Assembly: GCF_014635825.1 (NCBI RefSeq)
Contig: NZ_BMDO01000003.1
Coordinates: 124,001-188,000, forward strand
Reading direction: 5' to 3'
Length of the DNA: 64,000 nt
From: Mucilaginibacter galii
GTDB lineage: Bacteria > Bacteroidota > Bacteroidia > Sphingobacteriales > Sphingobacteriaceae
The translations under genes were made by a program, and so were the position numbers. Positions 26,600 to 50,869 of this stretch are shown here, piece by piece. Every line of letters starts with the position of its first letter. Within the stretch, counting starts at the first letter, position 1. The notes under the pieces were generated by a model. It did not search any database and was not told the origin of the DNA. It saw only the letters and a list, made by a program, of their open reading frames with translations.

Positions 26600-27550
26600 T
26601 TACGTTGCCGGTAAGCTGGCTGTTGTATAATCGCTTATTTTATTCAGATCAAGTGTAACTAATCCATTAGGGTCATCATAAAAAGCCGGAGTGAATTTTG
26701 CACCCCAAACTATCTCATCATGAAGGTAAGATGTGCGCGAGTGTACGGTTTGCGAAAACGTATCGTCAAAAGCCTGCATTAAAACCACCAGATTAGCGCG
26801 GCCTGCTTCCATATCTTCTGCGGTCATATGGTACAAAGGACTATTTTCATCAATGGGATGTACCACCGTCCAGCTCAGGGTTAAAATGCTCACCTTACTG
26901 CGCTCCAGTTTAAGGTTATGAAACCGCCTTATTGTCTTTCCTGCTACCTCTTCGTTGTAAGAAAATACCAGTTCAATGTCTAAATCAATTAACACATTGT
27001 GGCGCTTGTTGGCTAAACGCAGCATCAAACCACGTCCGGTAGGGGCGTAAGGGGCAATTAATACCATATCGCTGTAGGCAACTTTGGCCGACGGCCTTGA
27101 TATACGCCCGTATAATAAGCCCGTGGCAATGGCGAAAGCCAGCAAACCCAGCATCGACTCAAAAGCGGCTACGAAGTTGGTGGGTATACCTTGTGGACTA
27201 ACATGACCGTAACCCACCGTAGAAAGCGTTTGTGCCGAAAAAAAGAAAGCGCTCAAAAAGTGGTGATAGTGCGTTTGCGTGTCGGCACCCAATAAGTTAT
27301 TGTCGCCTATGTTTACATATATGGTAGCAAACAGGATATTGGTTAATAAATAAACGCCAATAACGATGAACCAAAACTTTGGCCAGCGCATAGTGATAAG
27401 CGCATTATAGTTATCAGATGTGCTGAAAAAAGGTAGGCCCTTGCGTTTAATATTTATACTGCCATCGCGGTTAATAATGCGCTGTTTAATGGCTTTGTTG
27501 CCTAAGCCTAAGTCGTTTTGCGGATTATCGGGTAAGTTTTTGGGGGACAT
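26600..27550 (-). CDS. KirBac-type inward-rectifier potassium channel
   Basis: 316 aa from the ATG at 27550, since residues upstream look non-conserved. Outer helix WFIVIGVYLLTNILFATIYV, pore loop FFFSAQTLSTVGYGH with selectivity filter TVGYG at about residue 113, inner helix GLLAFAIATGLLYGRIS. A large C-terminal cytoplasmic beta domain follows (VLIAPYAPTGRGLMLRLANKRHNVLIDLDIEL). The FFF-TxSTVGYG pattern and the Ig-like cytoplasmic domain are typical of KirBac channels. It converges with the SDR gene and diverges from the trp leader. Confidence 0.93.
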   Translation of the reverse strand: MSPKNLPDNPQNDLGLGNKAIKQRIINRDGSINIKRKGLPFFSTSDNYNALITMRWPKFWFIVIGVYLLTNILFATIYVNIGDNNLLGADTQTHYHHFLSAFFFSAQTLSTVGYGHVSPQGIPTNFVAAFESMLGLLAFAIATGLLYGRISRPSAKVAYSDMVLIAPYAPTGRGLMLRLANKRHNVLIDLDIELVFSYNEEVAGKTIRRFHNLKLERSKVSILTLSWTVVHPIDENSPLYHMTAEDMEAGRANLVVLMQAFDDTFSQTVHSRTSYLHDEIVWGAKFTPAFYDDPNGLVTLDLNKISDYTTASLPAT

Positions 27551-27602
27551 AGACAGCAGCTTGAAATGATAACGGTATAAGTATGTAAAAATAGAAGTAT
27601 GA

Positions 27603-27634
27603 TTTGCATTTCGGAAAAACATTAATCATATTTG
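27603..27634 (+). promoter_or_regulatory. Predicted trp operon promoter
   Basis: TTTG (27603-27606), 20 bases, then CATATTTG (27627-27634), one base off the TAnnTTTG consensus. Transcription would begin near 27638-27640, placing the leader ORF ATG (27647) close to the 5' end. Located inside the divergent KirBac upstream region. Confidence 0.55.
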
Positions 27635-27646
27635 CCACACAAAATA

Positions 27647-27694
27647 ATGAAGATACAAAACAATAACTGGTGGTGGCTTAACGAGAAATCGTAA
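27647..27694 (+). CDS. trpL: trp leader peptide (MKIQNNNWWWLNEKS)
   Basis: A 15-codon ORF: ATG at 27647, three consecutive TGG codons at 27668-27676, TAA at 27692-27694. Trp is normally the rarest residue, so three in a row directly upstream of trp genes is the classic signature of a ribosome-stalling leader peptide. Its stop codon directly abuts the antiterminator arm (27695). The peptide itself probably has no function; its translation speed senses charged tRNA-Trp. Confidence 0.85.
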   Translation: MKIQNNNWWWLNEKS

Positions 27695-27762
27695 GGCAAT
27701 CTCCTGTTTATATAAATATGATATATTGAAGGATTGCCCCAAAGGCAATCCTTCTTTTTTTT
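27695..27762 (+). promoter_or_regulatory. trp transcription attenuator (antiterminator and terminator)
   Basis: Three arms are visible. Arm 2: GGCAATCT (27695-27702). Arm 3: GAAGGATTGCC (27728-27738). Arm 4: GGCAATCCTTC (27744-27754), a perfect 11-bp partner of arm 3 with a 5-base loop and followed by eight T residues (27755-27762). Arm 2 can pair with the GATTGCC part of arm 3 and so compete with the terminator. With scarce Trp-tRNA the ribosome stalls at 27668-27676 and 2:3 forms (read-through); with ample Trp it reaches the stop, covers arm 2, and 3:4 terminates before trpD. A short ACGA-GAAA-TCGT hairpin covers the leader stop. Confidence 0.85.
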
Positions 27763-27770
27763 GGCAGCTA

Positions 27771-28760
27771 ATGAAAGCAATATTAAACCACTTATTCGAA
27801 CATAAAACCTTTAGCCGCGGGCAGTCTAAAGATATACTTACCAACATTGCGCAGGGGAAATACAATGCCTCGCAAATGGCGGCATTTATGACGGCCTATT
27901 GCATGCGCACCATCACCGTAGATGAACTGGAGGGTTTCCGCGATGCCATGCTCGAACTTTGCCTGCCCATCAAACTGGAGGCCGATAGCCTGATAGATTT
28001 ATGCGGTACCGGGGGCGATGGTAAGGATACGTTCAATATATCTACGTTGGCATCGTTTGTAGTAGCCGGTGCAGGGTATAAAGTGGCCAAGCATGGTAAT
28101 TACGGCGTGTCTTCAGGCTGCGGTTCCTCTAATGTAATGGAGTATTTGGGCTACCAGTTTACTAATGATGAAAGTAAGCTGAACAGTAGTTTGGATAATG
28201 CCGGTATCTGCTTTCTACATGCCCCCCTATTTCACCCGGCCATGAAGACGGTAGCACCTATTCGCCGTGAATTGGCCGTTAAAACTTTCTTTAATATGCT
28301 GGGCCCTATGGTTAACCCGGCAAAGCCCAATAACCAGATGGTAGGCGTTTACAACCTCGAACTGGCACGTTTATATGCTTATTTATACCAAAAATCTACA
28401 GTTAATTATACTATTGTGAATGCGCTGGATGGCTATGATGAGGTATCATTAACGGGCGATTTCAAAACATTTTCGACCGAAGGCGAAAAGATCAACAGCA
28501 TTAGCGGGTTGGGTTTTGATAAAGTGGACGCTAACGAAATAACTGGCGGACATACGGTAGCCGATTCAGCAGAAATATTTACAAAAGTGCTTAACGGCAA
28601 GGGGAGCACTTCGCAAAACAACGTAGTGCTGTGCAACGCCGGCTTGGCAATACGTACCATAGAGCCGGCCAAAACCTTTTCCGATTGCTTTTACGAAGCC
28701 GAACAGGCGCTGCTAAGTCATAAAGCGTTAAACAGTTTCAAGCAGTTACTGCAAATCTAA
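27771..28760 (+). CDS. trpD: Anthranilate phosphoribosyltransferase
   Basis: 329 aa from the ATG at 27771, 8 bases after the attenuator T-run; a TTG-started extension would lie inside the terminator and is rejected. TrpD joins anthranilate to PRPP. The PRPP-binding CGTGGDGKDTFNIST, the KHGNYGVSSGCGSSNVMEYLG block, and PIRRELAVKTFFNMLGPMVNP with the anthranilate-binding Arg are all present. First structural gene of the operon, with trpF one base after its stop. trpE and trpG are not upstream. Confidence 0.95.
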   Translation: MKAILNHLFEHKTFSRGQSKDILTNIAQGKYNASQMAAFMTAYCMRTITVDELEGFRDAMLELCLPIKLEADSLIDLCGTGGDGKDTFNISTLASFVVAGAGYKVAKHGNYGVSSGCGSSNVMEYLGYQFTNDESKLNSSLDNAGICFLHAPLFHPAMKTVAPIRRELAVKTFFNMLGPMVNPAKPNNQMVGVYNLELARLYAYLYQKSTVNYTIVNALDGYDEVSLTGDFKTFSTEGEKINSISGLGFDKVDANEITGGHTVADSAEIFTKVLNGKGSTSQNNVVLCNAGLAIRTIEPAKTFSDCFYEAEQALLSHKALNSFKQLLQI

Positions 28761-28761
28761 G

Positions 28762-29379
28762 ATGAAGATAAAGGTTTGCGGAATGCGGTCCCCGGAAAAT
28801 ATAGATGCCTTAATGAGGTTACAGCCTGATTATATGGGTTTGATATTTTATGCTAAATCGCCCAGGCATGTAGGTGATTTGCAAATGACTGATTTGCAAA
28901 ATATGCCTGATAATTTGATTAAGACCGGCGTATTCGTAAATGAGGATATAGCGGTTATAATTAGCCTCATAGAACGCTTTGCTTTGGGAGCGGTACAACT
29001 GCATGGTAATGAAAGCCCGGCGCTGTGTGTGCAGTTACGCAGTAAGGTAACCGTGTTAAAAGCTTTTGGGGTTGATGAGAACTTTAACTTTGATACATTG
29101 AATGATTATGCAGGCAGCGTAGATTACTTTTTGTTTGATACCAAAACCGTGACACATGGCGGTTCGGGGCAAACATTCAACTGGCAGGTGCTAGAAAACT
29201 ATAAACTAAACGTTCCTTTCTTTTTATCAGGCGGGTTAAGCCTCGAAAACTTAGAAAACATAAAGCATATTAAACACCCTGCCTTTTATGGTGTTGACTT
29301 AAACAGCAGGTTTGAGATACAACCCGGTTTAAAAGATACAGACAAGCTTAGCGAAGCTTTTAAAATATTAAGAGATTAA
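28762..29379 (+). CDS. trpF: Phosphoribosylanthranilate isomerase
   Basis: 205 aa (beta/alpha)8 barrel. It catalyses the Amadori rearrangement of PRA to Cd[16 protein letters not shown] holds the catalytic Cys near residue 5, [12 protein letters not shown] follows, then VQLHGNES and the catalytic Asp in YFLFDTKT. Phosphate-binding loops [10 protein letters not shown] and GVDLNSRFE follow. It starts one base after trpD and ends one base before trpB. The usual trpC gene between trpD and trpF is missing. Confidence 0.95.
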
Positions 29380-29380
29380 C

Positions 29381-30562
29381 ATGAAATATAACGTTAACGA
29401 GCAAGGCTACTACGGCGATTTTGGCGGAGCATACATCCCCGAGATGCTGTACCCTAATGTAGAAGAACTGCGCCAGCAATACAATGCCATCATAACCGAC
29501 GAAGCATTTATTGCGGAGTTTGACCAGTTGATGAAAGATTACGTTGGCCGTCCTTCGCCCTTATACCTGGCTAAGCGGTTGTCTGAAAAATACGGCGCCA
29601 ACATCTTCCTGAAACGGGAGGATTTGAACCACACCGGTTCGCACAAGATAAACAATGCTATAGGGCAAATTTTACTGGCTCAACGCTTAGGTAAAAAACG
29701 TATTATTGCCGAAACCGGTGCCGGTCAACACGGTGTAGCTACGGCTACGGTTTGTGCGCTAAAAGGTATTGAGTGCGTAGTTTACATGGGCGAAATTGAC
29801 ATGGAGCGCCAAGCACCAAATGTTGCTCGTATGAAAATGCTGGGCGCAAAAGTAGTAGCTGCAACATCGGGTAGTAAAACTCTTAAAGATGCGACTAACG
29901 AGGCCATGCGCGACTGGATCAACAATCCTATAGATACACACTATATTATAGGCTCGGTAGTAGGGCCGTATCCTTACCCCGAAATGGTAGCCCGTTTCCA
30001 ATCTATCATATCGCTTGAAACAAAGAAGCAGTTGCTGGAGCATACCGGCAAAGAGCTGCCCGAATATGTGCTGGCCTGTGTAGGCGGCGGGAGTAACGCT
30101 ATGGGCATGTTCTATCATTTTTTAGATGATGAAGAGGTAAAGCTAATCGCAGTAGAAGCAGCGGGTAAGGGTGTTAACAGCGGTCGTTCGGCGGCTACAT
30201 CGGTGTTAGGCCGGGAGGGGATATTACACGGCAGTCGTACCATCCTGATGCAAACCGATGACGGACAGGTGGTAGAGCCATATTCCATTTCGGCTGGCTT
30301 AGATTACCCGGGAATTGGTCCGCAGCACGCGCATTTGCACAAGGTACAGCGCGCGCAATATGTAAATATTACCGATGACGAATCTTTAGAGGCTGGTTTG
30401 CTGGTGTCACAACTGGAAGGCATCATTCCTGCTATAGAATCGGCACATGCCTTTGCATACCTGGAGAAAATGAAGTTTGAGAAAACGGATAACGTGGTGA
30501 TCTGTCTTTCGGGCAGGGGCGATAAAGATCTGAGTACTTATATTAAACATTTCGGCTTTTAG
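29381..30562 (+). CDS. trpB: Tryptophan synthase beta chain
   Basis: 393 aa PLP enzyme that condenses indole with serine. The PLP Lys lies in [34 protein letters not shown] holds the catalytic Glu; the phosphate loop is [15 protein letters not shown]. Length and N-terminal [14 protein letters not shown] are those of TrpB1, the partner of TrpA. It begins one base after trpF. A dispersed palindrome separates it from trpA. Confidence 0.97.
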
Positions 30563-30678: not shown

Positions 30679-31449
30679 ATGAACCGCCTCAACAGCCTAT
30701 TCAATCAAAAAAAGAACAACCTTCTTTCAGTATATTTCACTGCCGGATACCCAACGATTAACAGCACCATCGATATAGCTGAAGCTTTAGAAAAAGCAGG
30801 AGCAGACTTTTTAGAAATAGGTTTTCCTTACAGTGACCCTGTAGCCGACGGGCCTACCATTCAGCATAGCTCGCAACAGGCTTTGGATAATGGCATGAAC
30901 CTGAACCTGCTGTTTGAGCAACTGGCCGAACTGCGTCAGCGGGTAAGCATACCGGTATTGCTCATGGGCTATGCCAATCCTATGGTGCAATACGGTGTAG
31001 AGCGCTTTTGCGCCAAAGCGGCCGAAGTAGGGGTAGACGGTGTTATTGTACCCGATTTACCCATGTATGAGTATGAAACCTTGTACAAAGACAGCTTTGC
31101 TAACCACAACATCAGCAATATATTTTTGGTAACCCCGCAAACCGCCGAAGCCCGCATTCGCAAAATAGATGAGTTGAGCAACAGCTTTATTTATCTGCTG
31201 TCGTCTGCCTCAATAACCGGTGGTAATTTAGCACTGTCAGACGTTACCGAAACCTATTTCAAGCGTATTAAAGATATGGAGTTGAATAACCCTATCGTGA
31301 TTGGCTTCGGCATTGGTAACAAAGCAGCATTCGATAAAGCTACGTCTTACGCCAACGGTGCCATTGTGGGCAGTGCTTTTGTGAAGTTTTTAGCCGAGGA
31401 CAACTATATGGAAAGAATACCGGAATTTGTGAAGGGGATTAGAGGATAA
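30679..31449 (+). CDS. trpA: Tryptophan synthase alpha chain
   Basis: 256 aa barrel. Catalyses aldol cleavage of indole-3-glycerol phosphate; indole passes to TrpB. The signature LEIGFPYSDPVADGPTIQHSS holds a catalytic Glu and an Asp pair, followed by VPDLPMYE and GFGIGNKAAF at the phosphate site. It lies 116 bases after trpB, separated by the family C palindrome. Last gene of the operon, followed by a family A repeat. Confidence 0.96.
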   Translation: MNRLNSLFNQKKNNLLSVYFTAGYPTINSTIDIAEALEKAGADFLEIGFPYSDPVADGPTIQHSSQQALDNGMNLNLLFEQLAELRQRVSIPVLLMGYANPMVQYGVERFCAKAAEVGVDGVIVPDLPMYEYETLYKDSFANHNISNIFLVTPQTAEARIRKIDELSNSFIYLLSSASITGGNLALSDVTETYFKRIKDMELNNPIVIGFGIGNKAAFDKATSYANGAIVGSAFVKFLAEDNYMERIPEFVKGIRG

Positions 31450-49947: not shown

Positions 49948-49964
49948 ACTGCTTAACAACAAAA

Positions 49965-49992
49965 AAGCCCTGCCGATGTGTCGGCAGGGCTT
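49965..49992 (-). terminator. Terminator for rpoD
   Basis: Perfect 12-bp stem AAGCCCTGCCGA / TCGGCAGGGCTT with TGTG loop (minus-strand reading CACA), then TTTTTTG on the minus strand. Confidence 0.9.
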
Positions 49993-50008
49993 CAAAATTA
50001 TTAAAAGG

Positions 50009-50869
50009 TTAACCTAAATAAGATTTTAAGATCTTGCTGCGAGATGTATGACGCAAGCGTTGTAATGCTTTATCTTTTATTTGACGTACACGTTCACGTG
50101 TTAAATTAAATTTTTCACCAATTTCTTCCAACGATAGCGGCTGATTGCTACCTAAACCGAAAAATAATACGATGATCTCGCGCTCGCGCTCTGTTAAAGT
50201 GGAAAGCGAACGTTTAATTTCTTCAGATAACGACTCGTTAATTAAAATAGAGTCGGTATTAGGTTCTTTATTCTCTAATACATCCAGCAACGTATTTTCT
50301 TCTCCCTGAACAAACGGTGCATCCATAGAAACATGGCGACCAGAGTTGCTCAACGTATCAGAGATCTTATCAACCGTGGTTTCCAATATATCGGCCAGTT
50401 CTTCGGGTGATGGCTCACGCTCGTACTCCTGTTCTAACTTAGAGAAAGCCTTGCTTATTTTACTTAAAGAGCCTACCTGGTTTAACGGTAAACGCACAAT
50501 ACGCGATTGCTCGGCAATAGCCTGCAAAATAGATTGGCGAATCCACCATACGGCATATGATATAAATTTGAAACCCTTGGTTTCATCGAAACGCTTTGCG
50601 GCTTTAATTAAGCCCAGGTTACCTTCGTTAATTAAATCGCCAAGGGTAAGCCCTTGATTTTGATATTGTTTAGCAACCGATACCACGAAACGCAGGTTGG
50701 TTTTGGTTAGACGCTCTAAAGCGGCCTGGTCACCCTCACGGATCTTTTGTGCTAATATTACTTCTTCTTCGGCAGTTATCAGGTCAACCTTACCAATCTC
50801 GTGTAAATACTTATCGAGTGATTGTGATTCACGATTGGTAATGGATTGGGTTATTTTGAGTTGTCTCAT
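50009..50869 (-). CDS. rpoD: RNA polymerase primary sigma factor (RpoD/SigA)
   Basis: 286 aa. The short form without sigma 1.1, usual in Bacteroidota. Region 1.2 [18 protein letters not shown]; region 2 ([61 protein letters not shown]); region 3 ([19 protein letters not shown]); region 4 [15 protein letters not shown] and [27 protein letters not shown]. It recognises -33/-7 promoters such as those noted here. A minus-strand TACCTTTG (50911-50918) lies 41 bases upstream. Confidence 0.95.

Follow-up and report, generated by a model that had tools for sequence, protein, structure and literature searches.

The window analysed here is a 64,000-nucleotide stretch of the Mucilaginibacter galii genome, in which the tryptophan biosynthesis genes trpD, trpF, trpB and trpA follow one another on the forward strand behind a compact leader region (Table 1). 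The nearest named TrpD protein is that of M. aquatilis, at 89% identity, which fits the assignment to Mucilaginibacter. The leader region begins with two promoter-like boxes, 20 bases apart, and the second of these is separated by 12 bases from the ATG of a short open reading frame with three consecutive Trp codons. The initial annotation had proposed a fitting promoter here, and both boxes are present; inspection by eye also finds TTG or TTTG near the place of the -33-type box in many relatives. The short reading frame ends exactly where the antiterminator arm starts, as first described, and those coordinates are correct to the base. An intrinsic terminator follows, in which GAAGGATTGCC (27728-27738) and GGCAATCCTTC (27744-27754) enclose the loop CCAAA and run into eight T (27755-27762), leaving eight bases before the trpD ATG. 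The perfect 11-bp stem at 27728-27754 thus reads as claimed, and arm 2 folds with the first terminator arm, at 27731-27738, as had been proposed. On the opposite strand, a divergent ORF (26600-27622, -) resembles by eye an inward-rectifier-type potassium channel and has zero NCBIfam matches at 1e-10; if this ORF starts at 27622, it would run into the trp promoter.

Table 1. Features of the trpD leader region and of the genes behind it, in window coordinates.
Feature	Position	Strand	Basis
-33-type promoter box TTTG	27603-27606	+	direct reading
-7-type promoter box CATATTTG	27627-27634	+	7/8 match to the Bacteroidota sigma-A consensus TAnnTTTG
Putative transcription start (27639) and 8-nt 5' UTR	27639-27646	+	inferred from the box position that the available text of PMC9723704 gives for Flavobacterium psychrophilum
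Leader ORF MKIQNNNWWWLNEKS, 15 codons and stop	27647-27694	+	ATG 27647, stop TAA 27692-27694
Three Trp codons (sensor)	27668-27676	+	inside leader ORF
1:2 (anti-antiterminator) hairpin, GAAA loop	27669-27704	+	folding
Arm 2 GGCAATCT, antiterminator partner of 27731-27738	27695-27702	+	folding
Intrinsic terminator: 11-bp stem of arms 3 and 4, then eight T	27728-27762	+	reading, folding, covariation
trpD	27771-28760	+	TIGR01245, 303 bits, cut-off 199.05
trpF	28762-29379	+	best family match NF002298, 158.7 bits, under the curated cut-off of 215
trpB	29381-30562	+	TIGR00263, 589.3 bits, cut-off 392.45
trpA	30679-31449	+	TIGR00262, 238 bits, cut-off 102.35

The remaining trp genes, trpEGC, form an operon of their own on a separate contig (C12; L147:927-4059), apart from trpDFBA. 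The trpE call is supported by PF04715 above its cut-off, with the NCBIfam trpE equivalogs below theirs; trpG meets TIGR00566, a trpG/pabA subfamily model, and trpC meets NF001377. This trpE is also preceded by a leader, MTTKLNNLTWWHLNNKAAR, and a terminator, and a leader with two adjacent Trp codons (WW) followed by a terminator precedes trpE in all 30 genus loci that were read, our genome included (the best-scoring 30 of 58 full-length matches in 61 genomes). Since trpEGC and trpDFBA each have a leader, the split pathway carries two Trp leaders. Leader-like ORFs were also seen by eye before other amino acid genes of the same genome. A Phe/Tyr-rich ORF, MINNSAFGFGFYYFYFSSKSRA, and a terminator-like hairpin precede pheA (L178, contig C8) and are likely a Phe attenuator, while hisG (L177, contig C7) has a His-rich ORF, MNGLVLHHLHMHHRPLWR, and a hairpin with no clear T tract.

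The combination found before trpD is rare in sequence of comparable composition. The window holds a single short ORF with three adjacent Trp codons (WWW), namely the trpD leader, and a terminator stands behind it. Across 200 windows simulated with a first-order Markov model, eight short WWW ORFs occurred, none with a terminator, and 686 short WW ORFs occurred, eight of them with one. The fold of the 178-nt region is more stable than dinucleotide shuffles (z = -3.07) and was equalled by 1 of 200.

Conservation was followed across the genus with R1, a covariance model built from 31 leaders, and by reading individual loci. R1 matches 143 of 149 genus genomes. A trpD gene was detected in 142 of the 149, our own included, and all 142 have a strong R1 match (E <= 1.4e-14). 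The six genomes with no R1 match all lack a detected trpD, and a seventh such genome (G112) gives a weak R1 match only (E = 5.6e-4). Base-by-base reading covers the loci named here rather than all 142 trpD-bearing genomes: a leader and terminator precede trpD in 31/31 genus loci read as DNA, including that of the window, and both elements recur in 30/30 further R1 loci, drawn partly from the same genomes. An automatic check found trpD to be the next gene in 29 of those 30; the one left over, L051, coincides with L013, and trpD does follow there. In some Mucilaginibacter loci (L013, L024, L028 and L179) the terminator is separated from trpD by a long inverted repeat of the CCCCCTAAAGGGGG type, which may be a mobile palindromic element.

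The element extends beyond the genus. Within the family, R1 matches 157 of 201 genomes, in 17 of the 25 genera, and leaders were read in 13 of the 17 positive genera, counting our own; the other four have only matches with E of 2e-4 to 9e-4. Among 34 family loci read, 31 have a leader that starts with ATG and contains WW or WWW, and all 31 have a terminator. The remaining three loci have a WWW leader with a likely TTG start (L105), a WLW leader (L114) and a single Trp codon (L099). Among 81 distinct family leaders, 76 carry WWW and five WW. Named database records, many of them from the same genomes as the genus and family sets, have a leader and terminator at 68 of 80 trpD loci. The WW ORF alone is found at 69 of 80, the additional case being an Allomuricauda ORF (L257) that has no terminator, looks spurious and was set aside; a whole-locus scan also flags a WW ORF at L252, likewise with no terminator. 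At most 600 nt from trpD, a WW leader was found in 24/24 Mucilaginibacter, 27/27 Pedobacter and 9/9 Sphingobacterium records, in the single records of Pelobium, Pararcticibacter and Parapedobacter (1/1 each) and in 5/8 unclassified records. None was found within that distance in Algoriphagus (0/5), Fulvivirga (0/1), Litoribacter (0/1) or Flagellimonas (0/1); as this search covered the region upstream of trpD only, these records may still have a trpE leader. Some further R1 matches were rejected after inspection by eye. Three in our own genome (L072-L074, E 0.007-0.07) resemble terminators that belong to unrelated genes, and four second-place matches (L107-L110) and a window match at 49954-50088 look like plain terminators.

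This distribution bears directly on the possibility that a short ORF and a terminator became neighbours by chance. The region does double as the 5' side of the divergent ORF, but a WWW leader with a terminator arose in 0/200 Markov windows, and conservation in 142/142 trpD-bearing genus genomes and in other genera refutes a coincidence, which we regard as scarcely credible. Both the Trp codons and the hairpins, whose absence from relatives the initial annotation had named as grounds for abandoning its reading, are conserved, with compensatory changes.

A known RNA family provides the closest comparison. The available text of Weinberg et al. 2010 (PMC2864571) catalogues 'Bacteroid-trp' (RF01692) for Bacteroidetes, and that of PMC6414381 mentions this RNA upstream of the F. 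psychrophilum trp operon; Rfam names it 'Bacteroidete tryptophan peptide leader RNA'. RF01692 is the best Rfam match at 27627-27738 in a 401-base search (37.3 bits, E 0.0075), a score below its gathering score of 49 bits, and the window locus (L001) is absent from the RF01692 matches at E up to 1 in a larger search. Six of 35 relatives' loci pass the RF01692 cut-off (L013, L008, L016, L095, L079 and L090). By group, 3 of 17 genus trpD loci pass, with L001 among those that fail, as do 3 of 20 other loci, comprising 19 family trpD loci and our own trpE locus (L119), which fails. In a set of 296 genomes from across the phylum, R1 matches 39 and RF01692 matches 29; R1 matches 23 of the 29 RF01692-positive genomes, at the same place in all 23. 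A search of those 296 genomes with stricter filters returned no RF01692 match in the window's family, and the absence that this suggested is contradicted by the R1 matches in the family and by the RF01692 scores at family loci.

RF01692 shares with the trpD element a Trp-rich leader ORF, a 1:2 stem and terminator arm 3, and the two differ in gene context and in layout. By eye, the next gene at ten RF01692 loci (L032-L041) is trpE in most and trpB in L036, whereas here it is trpD. At those loci arm 2 (GUCGUGA) complements the terminator loop and the start of the 3' arm (UCACGAC) besides the 5' arm, unlike the trpD element, in which arm 2 pairs with the terminator 5' arm. RF01692 is the same kind of element, so the trpD leader is not a first for Bacteroidota. 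The trp attenuator of E. coli works through four RNA arms and tandem Trp codons. Both of these features are common to the two systems, which differ in that the operon here begins at trpD and in that the 5' UTR looks very short. The Rfam Trp_leader family (RF00513) has no match in the window at E up to 10, and the score of one relative, L094, is 34.4, below the cut-off of 41. Vitreschak and colleagues (2004, FEMS Microbiol Lett) reportedly identified candidate attenuators of the same mechanism by comparative genomics, with mention of Bacteroidetes/Chlorobi. For F. psychrophilum, which belongs to the same phylum and to another family, the available text of PMC9723704 describes strong clues, short of mutational proof, for the same class of regulation, leader-peptide attenuation before amino acid operons. 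Among the open-licence texts searched, none was found to report an experiment that tests Trp attenuation in Bacteroidota.

The way the leader changes between relatives supports its translation, which we infer from codon evolution. Among 48 genus leaders chosen for WWW, Asn is kept at the three preceding positions in 48, 45 and 46 leaders, and AAC and AAT alternate at these positions in the genus while the residue stays. Codons are lost in frame: L010 has one Trp codon fewer, and L017 is shorter by one codon and has TGC in place of one TGG. Leu-Asn-Glu after the Trp codons is nearly fixed in the genus, a constancy that the RNA hairpin alone could explain. The Asn run was also considered as a sign of an arrest peptide; it is weak evidence for one, since it loosens outside the genus.

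These observations also address whether tryptophan might be sensed by an RNA-binding protein or by a tRNA, in a TRAP-like or T-box-like manner, with the Trp-rich ORF incidental. Terminator/antiterminator pairs occur in TRAP-like and T-box-like systems too, so the hairpins alone would suit such a sensor. The leader, however, evolves in a frame-preserving and synonymous manner and its Trp codons are conserved. A gathering-level Rfam scan of the window returned three tRNAs only, and the best match below threshold is the tryptophan peptide leader. We therefore consider a sensor of this kind very improbable.

The promoter-like boxes stand close to the leader. In a table that took in only leaders matching the box pattern, 7-18 nt separate the end of the -7-type box from the leader ATG in 82 of 84 rows; two rows were set aside, one for a spurious second ORF (L002) and one for an upstream alternative ATG (L069). 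As a control, among 50 window ORFs of at least 150 aa, AT[AC]TTTG occurs at that distance in one and TAnnTTTG in two; leader and control counts are not the same test, because the leader pattern is slightly broader than the control pattern. The available text of PMC9723704 places TAnnTTTG at -12 to -5 in F. psychrophilum, where the median 5' UTR is 24 and 5.5% of mRNAs are leaderless, and that of PMC7366714 gives about 3.7% of 5' UTRs below 10 nt for Bacteroides thetaiotaomicron. Judged by promoter position in these other families, the leader mRNAs probably have a 5' UTR of 3-14 nt.

We assessed pairing of the four arms in 81 leaders (50 genus and 31 non-genus), requiring both WW and a detectable terminator and counting identical ones once. 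Three of the 34 family loci (L099, L105 and L114) lie outside this set, as does, on its terminator, one of the ten RF01692 loci (L038). Each leader's own pairings were compared with arms exchanged between leaders over 5000 permutations, a procedure not fitted to a model. In the 31 non-genus leaders the 1:2 pairing is much stronger with its own partner than when swapped (-14.18 vs -10.34, z -9.73), and the same holds for 3:4 (-15.65 vs -11.67, z -9.04); 0/5000 permutations were as good in either case. Covariation was not found for 2:3 in these leaders (own -10.19, swapped -9.74, z -1.44, 380/5000), nor over all 81 (z -0.03), and in the 50 genus leaders own 2:3 pairings are slightly weaker than swapped ones, the wrong direction (z +1.67). 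Within the genus alone, 1:2 gives no signal (z -0.68) and 3:4 a modest one (z -3.59). Non-cognate control pairs over the 81 leaders give z -2.16 for 1:3 and z +2.86 for 1:4, with the others within 1.5. When 65 family leaders are aligned to the model, both partners vary in 18 of 22 pairs, and 0/500 shuffles reached as high; the swap test is the cleaner evidence, because a model-fitted alignment leans towards structure.

The 2:3 core, GGCAA/UUGCC, is nearly invariant, which gives 2:3 little scope for covariation. The mean energy of the arm 2-arm 3 pairing is -10.95 kcal/mol, compared with -5.40 for shuffled arm 2 (81 leaders) and with -1.24 for the linker (80 leaders), and 65 of the 81 leaders fall within the best 5% of their own arm 2 shuffles. 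The antiterminator is conserved and pairs better than shuffles, but with no covariation of its own. This leaves room for a scheme in which the leader ORF is real and control acts chiefly at a different step, for instance at Rho access or by a coupling between the leader and trpD translation, while the hairpin is an ordinary terminator. The 2:3 result, the long inverted repeat between terminator and trpD at L013 and L024, and the hisG leader of the same genome, whose T tract is unclear by eye, would all be compatible with it. However, a T-tract terminator follows the leader in 31/31 and 30/30 genus loci and in 31/31 WW-leader family loci, and the arm 2-arm 3 energy lies far beyond that of the linker. 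We judge control through such another step to be improbable.

Taken with the parts and their conservation, covariation in the 1:2 and 3:4 stems supports the E. coli-type logic put forward in the initial annotation, as does the way a ribosome footprint fits the arms. Our main reading, to which we assign a probability of about 0.9, is that the element before trpD-F-B-A is a classical, ribosome-mediated transcription attenuator, and the trp genes are very probably turned down by it when tryptophan is plentiful. Transcription would start at about 27639, and a ribosome would start on the leader ORF very near the RNA 5' end. With charged tRNA-Trp scarce, that ribosome would stall on the three Trp codons and hold the 5' side of the 1:2 hairpin. 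Arm 2 (27695-27702) would then pair with 27731-27738, so that the terminator is blocked and trpD is transcribed. When tryptophan is plentiful, the ribosome would reach the stop codon at 27692 and cover arm 2, and the 11-bp terminator would form. If no ribosome were present, the 1:2 hairpin would form and the terminator would again be free. In this scheme, stalling would depend on tRNA-Trp and read-through would change.

Folding calculations are consistent with each of these states. For the window copy, with a ribosome at any Trp codon and RNA made up to the end of arm 3, 2:3 forms, and the stretch as a whole folds at -10.8 to -13.6 kcal/mol. A ribosome at the stop codon leaves the RNA unpaired before arm 4 exists, after which the terminator forms (-17.2); in the absence of a ribosome, the 1:2 hairpin forms and leaves the terminator free. 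Once complete, the RNA favours the terminator whatever the ribosome state, so the switch must be kinetic, with 2:3 forming first, as in the textbook attenuator. The ribosome footprint is taken to extend 12 nt past the first base of the codon in the A site. With this geometry, arm 2 is free while the last Trp codon occupies the A site, and a ribosome at the stop codon overlaps it, in 81/81 leaders, a count that is partly by construction because arm 2 was sought only at least 8 nt after the last Trp codon. To our knowledge, tight transcription-translation coupling is unproven in Bacteroidota.

The element may also be a variant of Trp attenuation suited to bacteria with no Shine-Dalgarno initiation. 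A near-leaderless mRNA, with a 5' UTR of 3-14 nt, would load its first ribosome at once, and the conserved Asn run would aid the stall, which would then depend on more than Trp-codon scarcity alone; two such switches, before trpEGC and trpDFBA, would operate in each cell. We offer this as a tentative extension and think it rather unlikely as a whole.

The Bacteroidota Trp leader extends past what Rfam flags, as 31 of the 37 family loci tested fall under the RF01692 cut-off. Bacteroidota are described in the available text of PMC9723704 as having no Shine-Dalgarno sequences, and an attenuator of this kind implies functioning transcription-translation coupling in such a phylum. The very short 5' UTR would make the leader a direct test of how ribosomes load onto attenuator leaders, and the two leaders on the split pathway would provide a natural two-reporter system.
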